DNA of 64,000 nt. Origin: a virus. The notes beneath the pieces were generated by a model. The model was given only the letters and a program-made list of their open reading frames with translations. It was not told the origin of the DNA and did not search any database. The stretch is from the IMG/VR virus record IMGVR_UViG_3300038441_001309, positions 62,001 through 126,000 of that record; one strand, written 5' to 3'. Shown here piece by piece: positions 10,639 through 63,910 of this stretch. Each line of letters begins with the position of its first letter. Positions within the stretch are counted from its first letter, which is position 1. A program made the translations under genes and the position numbers.

Positions 10639-10663
10639 GATAATTCAGGTTTGAATATTGGTT
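10639..10663 (-). promoter_or_regulatory. Candidate phage promoter element
   Basis: Minus strand reads AACCAATATTC then AAACCTGAATTATC. Same element upstream of genes at 27524, 31550 and 59777; here 34 nt before the start codon and preceded by a T-rich tract. Confidence 0.45.
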
Positions 10664-25284: not shown

Positions 25285-25602
25285 TTACCGATAACCGATT
25301 TGCAGGTCAACCAAGAACTGATGTCTTGAGATAGCTGCAAACAACTCATCGGGACGGGGCAGGTCAAAACCAGCGATGCCCTTGTACTTCCTGAGAGCCT
25401 CCGCCACCTGTACGCGATGTTCGTTCAAGTAGATACCACGCAGGCCATCGGGGGTCAGGATACGGGGGATCTGGTAGAGACCCGTGTGAACAAGAAAGCC
25501 ATAGCCCTGCGAAGAGAATGCAAACAGGTGGACAGGATACCCCTTACCGTCTGTCTCCTCACTCAGACCACGACCATCGTAGACCGCAATGTCGCAAGTC
25601 AT
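25285..25602 (-). CDS. Small hypothetical protein
   Basis: 105 aa, beginning MTCDIAVYDGRGLSEE. Not recognised. ATGA overlap with the stop of thymidylate synthase makes it the last gene of that unit and suggests coupled translation. Confidence 0.75.
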   Translation of the reverse strand: MTCDIAVYDGRGLSEETDGKGYPVHLFAFSSQGYGFLVHTGLYQIPRILTPDGLRGIYLNEHRVQVAEALRKYKGIAGFDLPRPDELFAAISRHQFLVDLQIGYR

Positions 25603-26969
25603 ACTGCCACCGGTGCGCCGATCTTCGGCCCATGGTCATAGTTGATGAGTTCGAAGTCTTCAACCTTGAAGTCCTCGATACGCTTGACATCTGGGTTGAT
25701 GTTGACCCATGGCAGAGGACGATCGCCCTTCTGTTCCAGCAGGGTCTTCGCCGCTTCGATGTGGTTCTTGTAGAGGTGTAGGTTGCCGTTGACCAGAACG
25801 AATTCGCCTGGATGCATGTTCACCACCTGGGCCACCATGCGGGTCAGCAAAGCGTACTGGGTGATGTTGAATGGACGCCCGAGGAAGCTGTCGTTCGAAC
25901 GCATGTAGAGCAGGCAGCTCAGTTTGCGAGTGGGGACACGTTTGGACTCTGCAAACTCGTAGATGAATTCGTAGAAGTCCGGCGAACGGAACCCACGGCC
26001 ATTGCGGGCCTCGATCCAGTCTTCCGCCTCTTTCTTGAGGGAGGACTTGCCCTGAATGCGCTCATCCCACTCGTCCCAGTGTTCGGACTCAGTGATGTCG
26101 CTCAGCACCTCGTCCCATGGACGACGCTCAGTGTCGAACTGGAACAGGGTGTGACAAGGGCGCAGGGCCATCTGGTCCAGATCAGGCACATGCCAGGCGT
26201 TGACGATAATACCGCGATCGTCTGGTTTGTTGATGAGCTGGTCGATGACGTTCTGCAGCTGATCGATCTTGCGCTCAACGATGGCTACCTTGGCACTGCT
26301 CTTGATCCGAGTACCGGTGCGTATCATGCGGCGGCCTCGACCACGCCGTCCACGTCCAGGAGTGTGCTGGGAGTTGCCAGACTCTTTCAGTACACCGACA
26401 AAGCGGTAGCCGCGTTTGACGTAGCCTTCAACCTCACTCAAGGTAACGCGACGAGTATCGACGATGCTGCGCCACTGCTGACCGTACACAGGACCCAGTT
26501 CACCGTCGAGTAGTTCATGGGTGTGGATGTTGAAGTTCTCAAGCATCAGCTCATGGGCTTCAACATCCATCACCGCATTCGGATGCATCTCCATCCAAAT
26601 GTCGACGTACTGATCGACGGCCTCTTTCTGGATCTTGCCTTCTTCGCACTTACGCTTGAAGATCTCCAGGCGCTCCTTGTAGGTATACTCACGTCCCCAC
26701 ACTTCAGTGCCAGGCTTGACCCATTCATCCCACACATGGCACTTGTGTTCCTTGAGGAACTTCAGGCGAGTAGAGCCCGAGATGATCCAGATCAACTCAG
26801 CCACGTTGATCTTGAACGGGGTGAACTTCGCATTCTCATGTGGATGACCTGCTTCGAGGTCCCAGCGGTCAATATGGCCGAACTGTGCCAGGGTGCCGAC
26901 CCCAGTACGATCGGAGCGCTCCACGCCGTTTTCCAGCAGGTTACGGATGGTTGCTTGCAATTTGTTCAT
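25599..26969 (-). CDS. thyA: Thymidylate synthase with large insertions
   Basis: 456 aa against about 264 in E. coli. Makes dTMP from dUMP with methylene-tetrahydrofolate. Clear landmarks: DRTGVGTLAQFGH near the N-terminus, GELGPVYGQQWR, DRGIIVNAWHVPDLDQMAL, the nucleophile Cys272 in RPCHTLFQF, RSNDSFLGRPFNI, and the C-terminus GAPVAV. Extra length lies in three insertions (about res. 90-150, 170-232 and 280-345), the second very Arg-rich (PGRGRRGRGRRM). The core residues are intact, so it should be active. Start ATG 26969 after AGGAA. DHFR, which regenerates the folate, is at 36.2 kb. Confidence 0.95.
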   Translation of the reverse strand: MNKLQATIRNLLENGVERSDRTGVGTLAQFGHIDRWDLEAGHPHENAKFTPFKINVAELIWIISGSTRLKFLKEHKCHVWDEWVKPGTEVWGREYTYKERLEIFKRKCEEGKIQKEAVDQYVDIWMEMHPNAVMDVEAHELMLENFNIHTHELLDGELGPVYGQQWRSIVDTRRVTLSEVEGYVKRGYRFVGVLKESGNSQHTPGRGRRGRGRRMIRTGTRIKSSAKVAIVERKIDQLQNVIDQLINKPDDRGIIVNAWHVPDLDQMALRPCHTLFQFDTERRPWDEVLSDITESEHWDEWDERIQGKSSLKKEAEDWIEARNGRGFRSPDFYEFIYEFAESKRVPTRKLSCLLYMRSNDSFLGRPFNITQYALLTRMVAQVVNMHPGEFVLVNGNLHLYKNHIEAAKTLLEQKGDRPLPWVNINPDVKRIEDFKVEDFELINYDHGPKIGAPVAV

Positions 26970-27056: not shown

Positions 27057-27524
27057 CTACTTGACGACGGAGAGAGATGGTCTTCCGATTGGGGTTGGTG
27101 GAGTTGGTTCATCCTTTACAGCCTCGTACTCATAGGGAGGGAAGCCAGAGAAGCCCATGGGCGCTTGGCCCGTGTTATTCTCGTCAAGTACAAACGCCTG
27201 CATGAATGCCGCCCAAGGAACGACGACATGTTGATCTACGCCGCCGAAGCGCGCATCGAAGTAGATCCCATACTCGGTATCGCCAAAGCCACGGATAGCT
27301 TCCGGCGACAGGTTGAGGATCACTTGATGGATTTCGGTGTTGTACAGCGGGTGCAGTGTCTTGGTTGCGTATGACTCCAAGAACGGCACATCGATCATCT
27401 GACTGTAGTCAACAACCAGATGGATCTTTTCCAACGTTTCGCGGTTCTCCAGATACCAGGCGTAGTAACCCGAGAACAGACGACGGCAAAGCGAGGTACG
27501 AAAGCGACGATATTCCGGCATCAC
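27057..27524 (-). CDS. SspB-like ClpXP adaptor
   Basis: 155 aa, close to the length of E. coli SspB (165). The order matches SspB: an N-terminal helix (LFSGYYAWYLEN), HLVVDY, IDVPFLESYA, VILNLSPEA, the hallmark FDARFGG followed by VVVPWAAFMQAF, then a Pro-rich linker. The end, GRPSLSVVK, is nearly the ClpX-binding tail of SspB (GRPALRVVK). SspB tethers ssrA-tagged or other substrates to ClpXP. A phage copy could redirect host proteolysis or compete with the host adaptor (inference). GTG 27524 has AAGGA 6 nt upstream; ATG 27521 is an alternative. Confidence 0.85.
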   Translation of the reverse strand: MMPEYRRFRTSLCRRLFSGYYAWYLENRETLEKIHLVVDYSQMIDVPFLESYATKTLHPLYNTEIHQVILNLSPEAIRGFGDTEYGIYFDARFGGVDQHVVVPWAAFMQAFVLDENNTGQAPMGFSGFPPYEYEAVKDEPTPPTPIGRPSLSVVK

Positions 27525-27596: not shown

Positions 27597-27624
27597 CATA
27601 AACCTCCTCCCCGTAGGGAGGAGG
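27597..27624 (-). terminator. Hairpin followed by TTTATGG (minus)
   Basis: CCTCCTCCC/GGGAGGAGG perfect 9-bp stem, loop CGTA (27603-27624). On the minus strand TTTATGG follows. Confidence 0.75.
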
Positions 27625-29930: not shown

Positions 29931-30482
29931 TCACGTCAGAATAGTGTCTATTACCTCCCCTCGGCTCTCTCGAATCTCTTCAAGGAACCTGATCACCCAC
30001 ATGCTGCGGTCAGCGGTTCTAACCAATGGGTTAGGGCAACGCTTGCCGTACACGTAGTAGTGAGCCAATGGGAGGGTTGAGTTCAGTAACCGAGCCAAGA
30101 TTTCAGGATATGTCTTGTACTTGAGTGCTATCGCATATTTGATTTCATGCTTGAACGACTCAAGGGTCACCTTCGGCAACGATGATCCACGCTTACGCGC
30201 TTCAAATCCATTACACGTCCTAAAATAGTCATCGGTCATACCCGTTGACAACCACCACCAAAATCCTTCAAGGGTCTTGAAATAACCAATGGGCTTTAGC
30301 TCTGCCGAGTAAGGCCCCTTGACAAGGATCAGTCTAGGGTTGTCAGTTGGTGTTCTGTCGTACAGGTTACTAGCCTCCCTGCCGACAACTGTGTTTCCCC
30401 CGGTATACACGTTTATGTGCGTGATACCATCCATGCTGGGATCTAAGGTGATCCCGTTTCGAATAATGGGTTCTTGAAGCAT
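29931..30482 (-). CDS. NADAR-like (YbiA-like) protein
   Basis: 183 aa. The order of motifs fits the NADAR fold: EASNLYDRTP (SNxY/F), then YFKTLEGFWWW with the conserved Glu of the YxTxEH region, then a long helix with KYAIALKYKTYPEILARLL, and a late Trp (SMWVIRFLEEIRE). NADAR proteins cleave N-glycosidic bonds, in riboflavin intermediates or in ADP-ribosylated guanine set by DarT-type toxins. A phage copy could reverse such defence marks (inference). The usual His after the Glu is Gly here. AAGGAG precedes ATG 30482. Confidence 0.55.
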   Translation of the reverse strand: MLQEPIIRNGITLDPSMDGITHINVYTGGNTVVGREASNLYDRTPTDNPRLILVKGPYSAELKPIGYFKTLEGFWWWLSTGMTDDYFRTCNGFEARKRGSSLPKVTLESFKHEIKYAIALKYKTYPEILARLLNSTLPLAHYYVYGKRCPNPLVRTADRSMWVIRFLEEIRESRGEVIDTILT

Positions 30483-33599: not shown

Positions 33600-34250
33600 T
33601 TACACCTTTGCGTGAGTGATACCGAGTTGGCCCTGATACTTGCCGCCACGATCCTTGTAGGACACGGAGCAAACTTCGTCACCCAGACCGAACAGGAACT
33701 GGCTGATGCCCTCGTCGACGTAGATCTTCTGCGGCACACCCGAGGTGTTAGAGATCTCGATGACCACCTGACCTTCCCATTCCGGTTCCAGTGGGGTCAC
33801 GTTGACGATGATGCCTTCGCGGGCGTAGCTGGACTTGCCCAGGCAGATGACAATGATGTCGCGTGGGATGCGGAAGTATTCCACGGTGTGGCCCAACATG
33901 AAGCCACCGGCAGGCAACCATGCAAAGCGACCGCCCCATTCGTCGGTCAGGATCTCGGCCTTGACCTTGTTACCCTTATCTGGTCGCTTGGCGTCGCCGC
34001 TGACATTGTTGATGTTGGTGAAGATCTCCAGACCATCGGCCAACCGCACGTCGTAGCCGTAGCTGGACAGACCATACGAGAACACGTCAACTGGAATGCG
34101 CACATCGCCCACTTCGCGCATTTCTGATTTGACCGATTGTGCGTAGAACGGCTCGATCATGCCGGGTAGCCACTTGGTGGTTTCACCGACGAAGTTGGTG
34201 TCGGGGATAAGGCAGCGTCGGGTAATGGAGTTGTCAGAAAGGAAAGCCAT
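33600..34250 (-). CDS. dcd: dCTP deaminase
   Basis: 216 aa. Converts dCTP to dUTP, feeding dUMP to thymidylate synthase. Landmarks: SSYGYDVRL (res. 62-70), [23 protein letters not shown] (around 138-160) with the conserved Ser and Arg, and a Glu in VVIEISN matching the catalytic Glu of the trimeric dCTP deaminase/dUTPase family. The length is slightly above the usual 190. Whether it also hydrolyses dUTP cannot be told. Start ATG 34250 after GGAG; upstream ATGs lie in the divergent promoter region. Confidence 0.9.
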
Positions 34251-34335
34251 GGTATTGCTCCGTATGTGAGGTCTGATAGATTGTCTCCAGAGCGTGGTGG
34301 TTGAAGAATGGTATGCACACACTCAGGAGGTCGCC
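34251..34335. promoter_or_regulatory. Divergent intergenic region
   Basis: 85 bases between the dCTP deaminase gene (minus) and a structural paralog (plus). On the plus strand TATG occurs at 34272 and again at 34312, the latter about 24 nt before ATG 34336. Confidence 0.35.
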
Positions 34336-47874: not shown

Positions 47875-48369
47875 ATGCTTGCCCCCTTCTCCAAGGCAGG
47901 CTTCGTGACTTTGATTTCGAATCTGGTTGGAAGAACGCTTGACCCTACCAAGGTTACCTTGCAGGATCAGGTTGTTCCTTCCACCGGCTTCGGTACCAAG
48001 CGCGAAGTCCAGATGGTGGTCACCTACCCGGATGCTGCTGGCACTGGCACGTTGACCAAAACCTTTTACTACAACCGCCGACAACTCAAGGACCTTGAGA
48101 CCCTCCTGTTGAACAAGGGTACCCTCTTCCCAGAGGACACCACGGTCCACAAGGTGCTCAAGCAACTGGAGCGACACACAGGTATCCTGTTCACCACCTT
48201 CGATCTGGAAGATGATCCAGTGGTGGCCCAGGGTTCGTTGGCCAACTTCACAATTACCTTGCGTGCCAAGTCCGGCTCCCCGTTCTACAAGGGCTCGTGT
48301 ACGTTGACAGTTGGGCGCAAACCACTGACGTCCACTCTGTTTACCAACTCCGACATTGGTTACATCTAA
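47875..48369 (+). CDS. Virion-type paralog 10, single domain
   Basis: 164 aa: a single N-domain (FVTLISNLVGRTLDPTKV, then KTFYYNRRQLKDLETLLL, TFDLEDDP, CTLTVGRKPL). No C-domain follows; the next gene belongs to the lectin-like family. GAGGTGA before the ATG. Confidence 0.8.
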   Translation: MLAPFSKAGFVTLISNLVGRTLDPTKVTLQDQVVPSTGFGTKREVQMVVTYPDAAGTGTLTKTFYYNRRQLKDLETLLLNKGTLFPEDTTVHKVLKQLERHTGILFTTFDLEDDPVVAQGSLANFTITLRAKSGSPFYKGSCTLTVGRKPLTSTLFTNSDIGYI

Positions 48370-48379
48370 GGAGATAGCC

Positions 48380-49408
48380 ATGAGTCTTCAATTTGCGATG
48401 GCCGTTCACCACATGGGGGTTAGCGGCCTGGAGTTCCCTGCACTGGGTCTCAACAAGTTCGGTGCGTTCGACACCGCCTTTGGCAGTGCCCCACCAGAAA
48501 CCGTCACCCAAAAGGGTAAGATGGCCTCCCTGAACCGGGGCACCTCGGGCCAACATGGTTGGACCATGCTGCCAAACTTCATCGTCCCAACTGCGGTGAA
48601 GAAGATCTACTTCGGTTGCCGCTTCACTGGGTTGGTTAAGCACCTGGGAGACGTCAACACTGCCCCACTTTATCTGAACATCGGTGGCGGTAAGCTTTAC
48701 CTGTTCCAGTCGGTCGCCAACTCGGCACAGGTTCCGCCGACCGACTGCTACCTTGAGGTGGAGATCGATCGCGATCAGGGTACCGTCACTGGATACATTG
48801 ACGGCGTATCGGTTGGGGTCATCGCCAACATCAGTGGTGGCACCAGTGCCAACCTTACCACTGCTGGCTTCACATTGGGCATAGCTGCCCGCAACTACAA
48901 CGATGCCCGCGCACTGTTTACGAGCGACGCTTACATCGCTTGGAACGACGGTGTTTACCCAAGCGCACGACTGGGTCCGGTCAAAATCAGCTCCGTACCG
49001 GTCAAGGTATCGTCTGTCAGCGGCTTCGACAAGACAGCGGCAGAACTGGAAACAATTGTCAATACCCGCATCGTCAATACCCAAGGCCAGCCTCTGACCA
49101 AAGGTACCGTCGCCAAGGCCAACGCAGCAGCGGCAGAGGTCAACTTCAGCCTCGACCTGACCGGCATCGATGTTAGTCGCCAACTGGCAGCCGGTATTTT
49201 TGTAGGTGCTCAGCGTACCGGCAGTCAGACTGTGACGGCAACCCTTGAGCGCAAGCTCGATGCGGTAACCACCACCGATCAGGCAGTAGACCTGACCACG
49301 CGCAGCGCGGATCGATTGAACTTCATCGCCCCGCTGGCTGCTCGTACGGCTTCGACTACTCGGTCGCTGAACGACATCACTCACAAGCTCAAGTTCGTGG
49401 AGGCGTAA
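48380..49408 (+). CDS. Virion-type protein, lectin-like family, member B
   Basis: 342 aa. CYLEVEIDRDQGTVTGYIDG and RLGPVKISSVPVKVSSVSGF match the same places in member C (49409). The fold looks like a concanavalin-type sandwich followed by an Ala/Thr-rich domain (GTVAKANAAAAEVNFSLDL). Start ATG 48380 after AAGGAGA. Particle surface role inferred. Confidence 0.75.
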   Translation: MSLQFAMAVHHMGVSGLEFPALGLNKFGAFDTAFGSAPPETVTQKGKMASLNRGTSGQHGWTMLPNFIVPTAVKKIYFGCRFTGLVKHLGDVNTAPLYLNIGGGKLYLFQSVANSAQVPPTDCYLEVEIDRDQGTVTGYIDGVSVGVIANISGGTSANLTTAGFTLGIAARNYNDARALFTSDAYIAWNDGVYPSARLGPVKISSVPVKVSSVSGFDKTAAELETIVNTRIVNTQGQPLTKGTVAKANAAAAEVNFSLDLTGIDVSRQLAAGIFVGAQRTGSQTVTATLERKLDAVTTTDQAVDLTTRSADRLNFIAPLAARTASTTRSLNDITHKLKFVEA

Positions 49409-50446
49409 ATGGCCATCGTTCTAGCTGAAAACTTCAAGGGCCTGGGCCTTGCCGCGGGGGTGAACTACAACACCCAAGACCCGAAACCATACGGGGCCTG
49501 CCCAGGTGTCTACGCGTTGATCACCACTGGCGCAACCATGGTTGGTAAAACCGACATCATCAACGTGGAAGTGGCCAACGGCAAATCCTGGTTGGCACCC
49601 TACAACGCCGGTCACCGAGTGGTTGGTCCTCTCACCAGTAGTTTGGGTATTGCGGTCGGTAATTCGACCATTGTCATCGGCGCGCGTTTCCGTGCTCAGG
49701 TCCCGCAAGCCGGCATCGTCAGTGCCTTCCCGGTGTTCCGATTGATTGGCACCAACTTCATCTACAACGTTCCAGCAGGCGTGGCTGAGTTCTACGCAGA
49801 GCTTGTGATTAATCGCGAGACCGGTACGGTCGAGCTGTGGATCGACAACAAGCTGAACGCCACCTGGCCTAACCTCTACCAAGGTACCAACCTGACCACC
49901 CTGCGGAACAATGGTGCTGATTTCTACTTCGGCCTGGGTAGCGTGGCATACTTCATGCATACCGACGTGCTGATCATCTACGATGCCGGTGATGACGGGA
50001 TTAATACCCGCACGGGTCCCGTGGATATCTCCAGTGTTCCGCTGAAGATGGTGTCCAGTCAAGGCTTCAATGTGGATGCCCTTACTGACGTACTGACCCG
50101 CAAGGACTACGCCACTGACTCCGGCACTCGCGTCAAGGGCGCTGCTGGTTCGGTGCCCCCCGAACTTAAGATGACCAAGGCTGATGGCTACGTCCTCCCC
50201 AACGACACTCCAGTGCTCGGCACTTTTGTAGTGGCCAAGTCCAACTATACCGTCGGTCAGCCAGGCGACCTCAAGGTTACACATAAGCGTGGTCCTAGCA
50301 CCAAGGAAGTGACGGCCATCCAGCCACCGGTGCTGCCAGTGCTGCCAAACCTTCTCATGGGGGTCAGTTCGCGTTCGGCAGCTGAGCAGACTGCAGCCAC
50401 TGCAATGGATGGTCTGGAGATCTCCCTGAAGGTCGCGGATCGCTAA
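49409..50446 (+). CDS. Virion-type protein, lectin-like family, member C
   Basis: 345 aa, starting directly after the previous stop (TAA-ATG). EFYAELVINRETGTVELWID and RTGPVDISSVPLKMVSSQGF align with member B, showing a tandem duplication. The C-terminal part is Pro/Val-rich (IQPPVLPVLPNLLM) and differs from B. Confidence 0.75.
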   Translation: MAIVLAENFKGLGLAAGVNYNTQDPKPYGACPGVYALITTGATMVGKTDIINVEVANGKSWLAPYNAGHRVVGPLTSSLGIAVGNSTIVIGARFRAQVPQAGIVSAFPVFRLIGTNFIYNVPAGVAEFYAELVINRETGTVELWIDNKLNATWPNLYQGTNLTTLRNNGADFYFGLGSVAYFMHTDVLIIYDAGDDGINTRTGPVDISSVPLKMVSSQGFNVDALTDVLTRKDYATDSGTRVKGAAGSVPPELKMTKADGYVLPNDTPVLGTFVVAKSNYTVGQPGDLKVTHKRGPSTKEVTAIQPPVLPVLPNLLMGVSSRSAAEQTAATAMDGLEISLKVADR

Positions 50447-59912: not shown

Positions 59913-61238
59913 ATGTTTTCGGAACAAACGTCGACGTTTATCTTCGACCAAGAATGGGACGCCTCACACCGTCTTAACCTTGAACCACAAATGGCGCTCG
60001 AAGCACTGGGTGCCACTGGCGATGCAATCAAGCGGGTCTACGACGAACTGTGTGAAGACCTGACTGTCGACAACTATTTGATCGACCGCATCCGCCGCTA
60101 CAAGCTGGGTTTCATCAACAAGAACGAAGACCACATTGCGTTCTTTGGTGGTAACCTGCTTGGTGTGGAAATCGTGCGCCACACCAAGATTGACCGTGAC
60201 GTGTTCTTTGAAGACGTCTTGGGTATCAGCGAACACGATGCTCGCCAACGCATTATCCAGACGCCGTTGATCGAATCTGACTTCGCTCGTCTGTCCGACC
60301 CGTACAACACCGCGGCCCTGTACCTGATCCATCGTATTCATACCTCCTCTAAGCTTTCTATCAAGGCCAAGGAACAGGGTAAGATCGATGCGTTCTACAT
60401 GCTGCAGGTTAAGCTGTTCACGTCGCTCCTGTCGCATTGGTACGACAAGCCTGCCTCCATCGAAGAGGCCAAAGCCACTTATGCCTCCCTCGATTTGAAG
60501 TGGGGTATCAAGCAGGCTGGTAGCTGGGACGCATGGTTCACGACCCGTGCTGAGAACTTCCTGCAACCCAACGCCATTCACGCACGCGTGGTGACGCACT
60601 TTGCTCCCGACAGCCGTGTAACCTACGCGGTAACCGAGCCTCAGGACCGTCTGCGTGAAGTGGTCAAGAAGATCTTCCAAGTCCACATGGACATTCGTCG
60701 CAATGGTGGGCGTATTCGCACCGTGACTTCTACTCTCGTCATTGACGGCGAGCTGATGGTTAAGTCTAACCTCGACAACAACAAGCGTTATGTCACCTAC
60801 ATCCAGTCGGTGATGAACGACCCTAACACGTTCATTCGTGATGAGGTCGTGACGCTGGTACGAGAGTTGGTCTCTACGGCCTCAGAGAAGCTCCTGTGGG
60901 ATCTTTTGAAGTGGGTGTGCGAGGCACACAAGGGTCGCACCAAAGTCCCCACCAACGAGCTGTCTGAAGAGCTGGTGCTGCACGCCATCGAGTACATCCA
61001 AGTTAACCGCATTGACATCAAGTCTGTGGACAACATGGCTCTGCTCGTAAGCAAGCTCAAAGACCTCTACGGTGCCTCCCGTATGAAAGACCAAGGCCTG
61101 ATCAAGGCCCGCGGTTATGCGGAAGACATCGTCAAGAAGTCCAAGCTGTCCAAGTCCGATTCACAAATCGCATCGCTGCGCACCGCGTTGGAACTTTATA
61201 TCGTGGTCCGCGCACTCACCATGAACTACTACAAATAG
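59913..61238 (+). CDS. Large virion-type or helical protein
   Basis: 441 aa, almost wholly helical and charged, with no membrane helix. Not recognised by motif. It opens the plus unit with two proteins that look like internal virion components, has the same length as them (441, 441, 439) and similar codon use. Weak ribosome site (GGGGATA). Structural role is by context only. Confidence 0.7.
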   Translation: MFSEQTSTFIFDQEWDASHRLNLEPQMALEALGATGDAIKRVYDELCEDLTVDNYLIDRIRRYKLGFINKNEDHIAFFGGNLLGVEIVRHTKIDRDVFFEDVLGISEHDARQRIIQTPLIESDFARLSDPYNTAALYLIHRIHTSSKLSIKAKEQGKIDAFYMLQVKLFTSLLSHWYDKPASIEEAKATYASLDLKWGIKQAGSWDAWFTTRAENFLQPNAIHARVVTHFAPDSRVTYAVTEPQDRLREVVKKIFQVHMDIRRNGGRIRTVTSTLVIDGELMVKSNLDNNKRYVTYIQSVMNDPNTFIRDEVVTLVRELVSTASEKLLWDLLKWVCEAHKGRTKVPTNELSEELVLHAIEYIQVNRIDIKSVDNMALLVSKLKDLYGASRMKDQGLIKARGYAEDIVKKSKLSKSDSQIASLRTALELYIVVRALTMNYYK

Positions 61239-61255
61239 GCCCGGAGCATCCCGCC

Positions 61256-62581
61256 ATGGATCTGCGAGAAAAATACAAGCACGTAACACTGGAGCATTTG
61301 CTCACGTTGGATGAGCGGGGCATTGAAGTCCTGCGTCGGGATATCGATCGTGACCATGGCAAGGTCATCATGTACATGGAGAACATGCAGGAAGTGGGCG
61401 GCATCTCCAAAGACGTCGCCATGCAAATGCGTGAACTCCTGCCACCTACCATGGCGATGGAAGGCTTCACTGACCGCCCAAGCTACAACGGCTACTGGAT
61501 GGTGGAAGAATCCCTGTCCACCACTGCCAAGGTGCTGGTAGGTGTTGCTGTCGTTGCGGTGTTTGGTTCGCTGCTGTACTGGGCACTGAAGACCGCGAAC
61601 AAGAAGACTGCCACCCTCAATGCCAAGACGGCCGAGGATGAGAAGAAGGCACGTGAAGCTCGTGTAGCTTGGGAAAGCAACATGGCCAAGATGCGTGCCA
61701 ACGAGGCCCAGGCTGCGCGTGACGCCGAGAAGGCTCGTGCAGACAGTCGTGAACAAGGTATCCAGCGCTTCGTTGCTTCCAAGCCCAACGCCTACACCAT
61801 GCGTTATTTGGAGCAGCTCTTCTACAAAGATGTGAAGATCGGCGCCTCGCTCACCCAGCTGATTGAACGAGCCAACATCAACACCTACAAGGACTACCAC
61901 GAGAAGCTGGTACCCGCCATCGATGAGATCATCAAGTTCGCCAAGAACCCAAATGGCCTAATCACCCCAGGCTTCATGAAAGCCCATGCCACCATCGGTC
62001 GTGTTGACCACACAGAGACGGCTAAGCTTGATCACTGGTGCGCCGAGCAGTTCAAAGAACTGCACTACGGTAGCGTGGGTACCAACACCATGTTGGGCAA
62101 GAAGATCGACTTCGAAACCTTCATGTCCTGGGCCCGTGGCGACAACGGTTTCAGCGTCGAGATGACCCGTGTTGTCTTCGACCGCATGAACAAGCAACCC
62201 AACAAAGAAGTCAAGTCGCCGACCAAGTTGGCTGAGCAGTACAAGATGCTCAACGACATCTCCAAGATCGCCCAAGACCTGCCCAAGCAGGAGAAGCGTC
62301 TGGAAGGTGTTGACGCTGACCTTCCACCAGACTTCAAGAAAGGTTTGACTGCACTGATCGAGGACATCCGCGACTCGGTCAAGTACGTGGACAAACTGAT
62401 CGACCTGATCAACTTGGAAATCGCAACCTATACCCACGTCGCTCAAGCGGTGACCGCCATCAACGTGATGGAAGTCAAGGGTATCAAGATTGCGCTGGAA
62501 TACATCATCAACGACCCGAACACCGACGAGAAGATCCGCGAAGGTATCCGCGAGTCCATCAAGTCTCTGCCCAGGATTTAA
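61256..62581 (+). CDS. Internal-virion-type protein with propeptide and membrane helix
   Basis: 441 aa. A helical N-terminal part (res. 1-68) is followed by AMEGF (E69-G70), which fits the A/S-x-E cleavage site of phage prohead proteases. A hydrophobic helix (about 91-111) and a long coiled-coil body (ANKKTATLNAKTAEDEKK, ARDAEKARADSREQG) follow. The next gene has the same plan. In phiKZ-like phages several paralogous inner-head proteins are trimmed like this; the role here is inferred. Confidence 0.7.
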   Translation: MDLREKYKHVTLEHLLTLDERGIEVLRRDIDRDHGKVIMYMENMQEVGGISKDVAMQMRELLPPTMAMEGFTDRPSYNGYWMVEESLSTTAKVLVGVAVVAVFGSLLYWALKTANKKTATLNAKTAEDEKKAREARVAWESNMAKMRANEAQAARDAEKARADSREQGIQRFVASKPNAYTMRYLEQLFYKDVKIGASLTQLIERANINTYKDYHEKLVPAIDEIIKFAKNPNGLITPGFMKAHATIGRVDHTETAKLDHWCAEQFKELHYGSVGTNTMLGKKIDFETFMSWARGDNGFSVEMTRVVFDRMNKQPNKEVKSPTKLAEQYKMLNDISKIAQDLPKQEKRLEGVDADLPPDFKKGLTALIEDIRDSVKYVDKLIDLINLEIATYTHVAQAVTAINVMEVKGIKIALEYIINDPNTDEKIREGIRESIKSLPRI

Positions 62582-62590
62582 GGAACCTCT

Positions 62591-63910
62591 ATGAACATTC
62601 CCGGAATTACCGACATCACGCCTGAAGAGATGGCAGGCATGACGTTGGAGCAGTTGGAAGAACTGCGCGACTTGGCAGACTCCCAGGGCAAGGAGTTCCA
62701 GATGCAGCTGGAATCTTTGGAAATGGCAGGCGGTGTGTCCATTGCCCACGCCACCCAGTTCAAAGGCATCCTGCCGTCTCAGGTAGTGCTGGAATCCTTC
62801 ACCAGTCAAGTTACGCACACCAACTACGCCGTGGCCACCGAGTCTCTCAAGACGGCTGTTAAGGTCGCTGCTGTGGTTGGCGCGGTCGCTGCCATCGGTG
62901 CCATTGGTTTCCTCATCACCAAGATGATGTCCCGTGGCGATAAAGCCGCTAAGCAACAGGAAATGACCAAGCGATGCGTCACTGTCTACCAGACGGTGTT
63001 CGATCAGAACGACCCGGCCATGCGCGAGAAGATTCAGGAAGCCGTACAGAAGCGCATGGAGCAATTGGTTGAGGAGGGTGTCACTCGTGGTGAGTTGATG
63101 GCCTGGGCGGCAATGCCTGCGCTGGACGCTGCCAGCAAGTTGAGTGCCGACAATTGCAGGATGGTGTCGTACCTTGATAAGTTCTTTGCCGATAACGTTG
63201 GCGGCGACATTGACCTTATCTCCAAGGGTAACGTCGATAAACTTACGCTGCGCGACTTACCTTCCTTCAGCGGTAGGGAAGCCTTCACGTACGATAACAT
63301 CAAAGCCAACCTTGATGCGAAGTCGATGTATTGTACGGTCGACTGGGAGAAGAAACTCAACAAGCGTGGTGCCACCATCGAGGAATTCAACGCTTATCTC
63401 GAAAGCTATGAATCTGTCATCCGCATGAAGGTGACCCCAGACGACCTGAAGGGTAGTTCTCCGCTGGCCAAATTCTACAAGGACGCATCGCCACCTTCCT
63501 CCACCTACCTGGGCGTTGAGTTGCAGGTTGCTTTAGGTTGGCTTGGGTTTGTTGGGCAGATTGACGAAAAGCTGGCCAAGGCCCAAAAGTCTGTGGCAGA
63601 GGCTCAGAAGAAACTGGACGACGCTACAGACGTACCGAAAGACGTCATGGAGCACATTCGTAAGAAGGCCAGAGACTTCGAAGGCATGCTGCGCGTCATC
63701 AACAACCTGATGGTTGCGGCCGACTTGGAGATGCGGGAAATGACCATGGGCTTTAAGCGTTTCGCCCAGGACATGACCGTGGCTTACAAGGAACTCTACG
63801 AACACACTGCCAAGATGCTGTCGCATGACGATCTGGACCCGGCCATTAAGGCCAAGCTGAAAAAGAGTGTCGAAGCTGTTCGTAGCGACATTTCCAAAAT
63901 GAAAGGGTAA
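62591..63910 (+). CDS. Internal-virion-type protein, paralog of the preceding gene
   Basis: 439 aa. Same layout as the gene at 61256: N-terminal 68 residues with paired PEEMAGMTLEQLEELRDL-type helices, a VLESF site (E68-S69), a hydrophobic helix at about 89-110 (VAAVVGAVAAIGAIGFLI), then a charged coiled-coil body. AAGGAA before the ATG, 9 nt after the previous stop. Confidence 0.7.
   Translation: MNIPGITDITPEEMAGMTLEQLEELRDLADSQGKEFQMQLESLEMAGGVSIAHATQFKGILPSQVVLESFTSQVTHTNYAVATESLKTAVKVAAVVGAVAAIGAIGFLITKMMSRGDKAAKQQEMTKRCVTVYQTVFDQNDPAMREKIQEAVQKRMEQLVEEGVTRGELMAWAAMPALDAASKLSADNCRMVSYLDKFFADNVGGDIDLISKGNVDKLTLRDLPSFSGREAFTYDNIKANLDAKSMYCTVDWEKKLNKRGATIEEFNAYLESYESVIRMKVTPDDLKGSSPLAKFYKDASPPSSTYLGVELQVALGWLGFVGQIDEKLAKAQKSVAEAQKKLDDATDVPKDVMEHIRKKARDFEGMLRVINNLMVAADLEMREMTMGFKRFAQDMTVAYKELYEHTAKMLSHDDLDPAIKAKLKKSVEAVRSDISKMKG

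Follow-up and report, generated by a model that had tools for sequence, protein, structure and literature searches.

The SspB-like gene

The window analysed here, a stretch of 64,000 nucleotides, comprises positions 62001-126000 of the viral record IMGVR_UViG_3300038441_001309 (140,672 bp), and coordinates refer to the window unless they are marked as those of the record. On its minus strand, an open reading frame at 27057-27524 counts 155 codons from a GTG at 27524. Translation likely starts at the next codon, the ATG at 27521, which is preceded by GAAGGAA, giving an sspB-like gene at 27057..27521 with a product of 154 amino acids that was recognised by Pfam, PHROG, a phmmer search of the PDB and a fold search. 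The product of the reading frame matches the Pfam family SspB (PF04386) with E=1.1e-7 and 32.4 bits, above the curated cut-off of 27. It also matches PHROG 8945, "Sspb-like" (E=3.3e-6), and E. coli-type SspB chains of the PDB (phmmer, E=3.4e-7 to 9.1e-7), and in the phmmer alignment with 8et3 the phage tail pairs residue for residue with GRPALRVVK.

In bacteria, SspB is an adaptor that delivers other proteins to the protease ClpXP. The initial annotation had pointed to an SspB signature, FDARFGG, and to a ClpX-binding-type tail, GRPSLSVVK, at the C-terminus. Both are found in the product, and the Pfam, PHROG and PDB matches agree with this assignment. The whole record has 958 stop-to-stop frames that reach 60 codons or more, and a P.[LF].[VIL][VI]K ending is carried by the sspB frame alone. 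At the level of sequence, it is thus confirmed that the resemblance to SspB is not due to chance, and the phage gene product is supported as a true, highly diverged SspB homologue. The protein had been described as an SspB mimic, and while a phage-encoded SspB with an intact tail is indeed what we find, the word mimic understates the relationship, because the protein is a homologue. A protein search of IMG/VR returned no close relatives, and the gene is very diverged.

Predicted fold

Structure prediction, which the initial annotation had proposed as a check, retrieved the SspB fold with two AlphaFold2 models, both of low confidence. The alignment for model 1 contained 11 sequences including cellular SspBs, which makes this fold test partly circular; the model had a mean pLDDT of 55.8 and a pTM of 0.50. 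In a fold search of the PDB, its best 13 matches were all SspB, with E=4e-5 to 1e-3, a probability of 1.00 and moderate TM-scores. Because cellular SspBs had been part of this alignment, the prediction was repeated with phage sequences only, three in number. This second model (mean pLDDT 49.1) again had SspB for all of its best 13 PDB matches. Since the scoring of Foldseek draws on sequence as well, the fold matches of these low-confidence models are support rather than proof of an SspB fold.

Tail, linker and groove region

The C-terminal tail GRPSLSVVK (27060..27086, minus strand) is of the ClpX-binding (XB) type, as judged from its match to cellular tails and to 8et3. Cellular SspBs end in GRPALRVVK in 61 of 110 cases and in GRPSLRVVK in a further 19 (80/110 together), and nearly all the remaining ones have close variants. 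The tail is joined to the domain by a poorly conserved linker containing proline and acidic residues (27087..27155, minus strand), as seen in the alignments and in the low pLDDT of both models. The XB peptide by itself binds and activates ClpX (PMC12373786).

To examine the residues of the domain, 33 diverse cellular SspBs were aligned with 13 phage proteins, namely the protein studied here and 12 others. In the beta/groove block around VILNLSPEAIRGFGDTEYGIYFDARFGGVDQHVVVPWAA (27207..27326, minus strand), the equivalents of E. coli L53, N54, A59, F72, A74, R75, F76, G78 and P86, which are invariant or nearly so in cellular SspBs, are all kept (9/9). We take this set of residues to lie on the peptide-binding face, i.e., the ssrA groove. 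The N-terminal helix is predicted in AlphaFold2 model 1 (low confidence), and the equivalents of P11, Y12, R15 and A16, which are invariant in cellular SspBs, are altered in the phage protein. As a consequence of these changes, dimerisation through the N-terminal helix, as in SspB, is unsure from the sequence. The protein thus shares with the gammaproteobacterial SspB of E. coli the domain order, the groove-region residues, a flexible linker and an RPxLxVVK tail. It differs in that it is phage-encoded, has only about 33% core identity, carries an insert at about residues 44-64 and is changed at the four helix positions.

The phage carrying the gene

The record encodes phiKZ-type subunits of multisubunit RNA polymerases and a phiKZ-type DNA polymerase. 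Furthermore, it carries a chimallin homologue at record positions 47950-49425 (minus strand), which matches phiKZ gp54 with E=1.5e-27 and 25% identity and adjoins RNA polymerase and DNA polymerase genes, the same neighbourhood as in phiKZ. Chimallin together with the phiKZ-type RNA and DNA polymerases points to a phage of the nucleus-forming type, and by its gene content it is a distant relative of the nucleus-forming (Chimalliviridae-like) jumbo phages. At 140,672 bp, the record may be incomplete when compared to the genome size of >200 kb expected of Chimalliviridae. Among 50,697 phage records, none gave a near DNA match to the central 20 kb of the window. As to a possible source of tags, no tRNA or tmRNA was found in the record.

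Phage relatives

SspB proteins of phages were known before, and the present gene is not new in kind. Pseudomonas phage pf16 gp18 was published in 2017 (PMC5587285), and Erwinia phage RAY gp039 was published in 2023 as an SspB-like ClpXP adaptor (PMC10299810). Database entries for EL, Moabite, RVTF4, Churi and several Erwinia phages also use SspB names. When models of viral proteins were searched by structure, matches came from proteins of Noxifer, Phabio, Psa21, PhiEaH1, PA7, PhiPA3 and 201phi2-1, several of them labelled "uncharacterized", and a protein search reaches phiKZ gp232 (PHIKZ232), which is unnamed in the phiKZ record. It matches Pfam SspB with E=6e-5, below the cut-off, and its C-terminal end is TPKLTVIKGGKK. 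The gene is thus a member of an old family that is widely shared among jumbo phages and includes phiKZ gp232.

Outside the tail, identity to other phage SspBs is only about 19-31%, and the tail is nonetheless kept. All 17 phage sequences carry one of two related tail types. The first, PxLx[VI]VK, is found in the phage studied here, RAY (KKPTLTVVK), AH06, pf16 (KKPTLRVVK), NCTB (KKPTLSVVK) and two further jumbo phages, L022 (GRPTLSVVK) and L023 (GRPFLKVVK). The second is a variant in which IxGGK forms the end or closely precedes it; this type occurs in phiKZ, Phabio, Psa21, RVTF4, EL, FBKp24, MJ359, Moabite, Totoro and PhiEaH1, and we infer that it binds ClpX likewise. L022 and L023 came from a scan of IMG/VR for the tail pattern, which gave 15 loci. 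These two were SspB-like, undetected by Pfam and from records that both encode chimallin; the others are apparently chance matches or other proteins.

The individual relatives differ in how much they share with the present protein. RAY gp039 likewise combines a nucleus-forming phage, an SspB domain and the PxLxVVK-type tail, whereas identity is about 21%. The proteins of phiKZ (gp232), Phabio, Psa21 and RVTF4 have an SspB-like domain (with a Pfam match above the cut-off in Psa21 and below it in the other three), but carry the GGK variant tail and a long insert before it. NCTB BN7874_154 and the L022 and L023 proteins have the PxLxVVK-type tail and group weakly with the phage protein in the tree, but NCTB has no chimallin match.

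Two phage integrase-like proteins, L028 (end 3318, plus strand) and L030 (11229-11258, minus strand), end in GRPTLRVVK and GRPALKVVK, respectively. Given the size of the scan, these SspB-like tails may be chance.

Gene neighbourhood

Directly downstream of sspB lies a thymidylate synthase gene (25599..26969, minus strand; PHROG 160, E=1e-88). Other phages also have sspB upstream of the thymidylate synthase gene and on its strand. The two genes are separated by about 90 bases in the present phage, by 0.2 kb in Phabio, by 0.8 kb in NCTB and by 1.6 kb in phiKZ, and the gap is larger in PhiEaH1 (about 4.8 kb) and Psa21 (5.9 kb). Without common descent, it would be difficult to account for the two genes lying this near each other, in this order, in four phages that are only distantly related. 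In RAY, where the genes are not adjacent (16 kb), and in FBKp24 and MJ359, the distance is 16-19 kb, and in L022 and L023 thymidylate synthase lies about 23-25 kb off, on the other side of the sspB-like gene. No thymidylate synthase match was found in Moabite, Totoro or pf16. In a Pfam scan, the genes directly upstream of sspB matched no families, and no functional partner was found among them.

The thymidylate synthase itself has about 456 amino acids, and its relatives align with about residues 10-181 and 230-457, flanking a basic stretch of little similarity. Another gene, at 29931-30482 (minus strand), is 32-34% identical to genes near or adjoining sspB in MJ359, FBKp24 (Klebsiella) and Moabite (Serratia). 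The Moabite relative is annotated as a YbiA-type N-glycosidase, and the window gene itself has no Pfam match. A dCTP deaminase is encoded at 33600-34322 (minus strand), and in the jumbo phages G002 and G003 relatives of this gene are found at a distance of about 1-2 kb from the one for the SspB-like protein. Nucleotide-metabolism genes thus recur close to phage sspB genes.

Promoter-like motif and transcription

About 22 bases before the ATG of sspB there is a perfect copy of a recurrent promoter-like motif, AAACCTAAATTATCnnnnTGA (27563-27543, minus strand). The record contains 12 high-scoring sites; all of them have minus-strand orientation, and each is followed by an open reading frame at a distance of 11-55 nt. 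The genes behind them include chimallin (site at record position 50030) and a 707-aa RNA polymerase gene (34945), and further examples in the window are at 10652, 31630, 14659 and 59856. The scoring matrix was trained on the same 12 sites, such that the pattern of strand and position is the better evidence. The motif is a candidate promoter of a phage RNA polymerase. A promoter scan found no sigma-70 promoter in the sspB region, and the record lacks what we take to be the early-promoter word of phiKZ, TATATTAC.

The gene upstream of sspB is followed, directly behind its stop codon, by a hairpin sequence, CCTCCTCCCTACGGGGAGGAGG (27601..27624, minus strand), a possible terminator isolating sspB. 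It is GC-rich and has a short T run, and the terminator scan did not call it. In this position, the hairpin suggests that sspB may be a separate transcription unit. The initial annotation had placed the gene in a unit of its own with a candidate promoter, and this accords with the perfect copy of a motif that precedes 11 other minus-strand genes and is not of the sigma-70 type. The sspB gene is probably expressed early and by way of a phage-specific promoter common to chimallin and an RNA polymerase gene, the timing being read solely from the motif that it has in common with chimallin.

Origin of the gene

The presence of an SspB gene in a viral record could in principle mean that the phage has recently picked up host sspB, or that the assembly includes host DNA. 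Recent captures do occur, since in the tree pf16 gp18 nests inside the cellular SspBs; it is close to them (Pfam E=1.1e-34), has the PxLxVVK-type tail as well and probably represents a later, separate capture. However, of 185 genomes sampled, 163 have a gammaproteobacterial SspB, and those listed mostly reach 94-155 bits with the Pfam family, versus 28.7 bits for the phage protein. Moreover, the DNA around the gene is that of a phage, the gene has a phage promoter-like motif and shares its synteny with thymidylate synthase with other phages, and its product groups with other jumbo-phage proteins outside the cellular ones, though support is weak and branches are long. On the grounds of the low Pfam score and the position in the tree, recent host capture is rejected as extremely improbable.

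Possible function

In nucleus-forming phages, a shell encloses the phage DNA, but host proteolysis stays outside it in the cytoplasm. We consider it quite likely that the gene encodes a diverged SspB homologue of a nucleus-forming jumbo phage that acts as a ClpXP adaptor. In this reading, the globular domain would hold a peptide in its groove, and the C-terminal RPSLSVVK, at the end of a flexible linker, would dock on the zinc-binding domain of ClpX, such that proteins bound by the adaptor would be handed to host ClpXP. The site of action would be the cytoplasm rather than the phage nucleus. Analogues for this location are RAY gp039, which is diffuse in the cytoplasm (PMC10299810), and PHIKZ232, one of the six fusions described below.

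The main rival to a working adaptor is a decoy that occupies the zinc-binding domain of ClpX or pairs with host SspB in mixed dimers, which would block host SspB or other ClpX adaptors and spare phage proteins from ClpXP. An identical tail type would compete for one site on ClpX, and for pf16 gp18 competitive inhibition, involving the RseA path, has been proposed on the basis of docking (PMC5587285). However, a protein that does nothing but block could do without the groove-region residues, and all nine that were examined are kept here. The XB tail, moreover, stimulates ClpX rather than merely blocking it (PMC12373786). Since both the tail and the groove-region residues are retained, a delivering adaptor is favoured over a pure blocker, and we regard the decoy as unlikely.

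It is less probable still that the protein is a peptide-binding or shell-associated protein on the SspB fold for which ClpX binding is no longer the main job. Such a role would fit the enrichment of PHIKZ232 with the phage shell in fractionation (PMC10449902), as well as the long inserts between domain and tail in some relatives (Psa21 248 aa, phiKZ 302 aa). In microscopy, though, most of the six fusions tested, PHIKZ232 included, were diffuse outside the shell (PMC10449902), and the tail here has the cellular form, with one or the other of the two related types present in 17/17 phage sequences.

With respect to the substrates of a delivering adaptor, a search of the available phage proteins for ssrA-like C-termini or AANDENY-like motifs gave at best 5/11 matches and no clear substrate. 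As no ssrA-like tag was seen in this part of the phage proteome, tagged phage proteins are less likely substrates, and host proteins or ssrA-tagged rescue products are the likelier ones. It is possible, as a hypothesis, that the phage adaptor brings about the destruction of host or defence proteins. By redirecting ClpXP with an adaptor of its own, a phage would have a simple means of reshaping the host proteome.

More speculatively, and on balance doubtfully, SspB-type adaptors might be an ancestral, mostly unrecognised takeover gene of nucleus-forming jumbo phages (phiKZ gp232 included) that lies by thymidylate synthase, is co-expressed with chimallin, has two tails fitted to ClpX and has grooves that select host proteins over ssrA tags. 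What is added here to the earlier reports is the family link to phiKZ gp232, the thymidylate synthase neighbourhood, the two tail types, the promoter-like motif and the L022 and L023 proteins. With the link to gp232 of phiKZ, the best-studied model phage, and with the common neighbourhood, the old suggestion concerning phage SspBs becomes testable in the laboratory.

Elsewhere in the window, at 59913-63910 (plus strand), there are three tandem open reading frames of 441, 441 and 439 amino acids, which are possibly paralogues.
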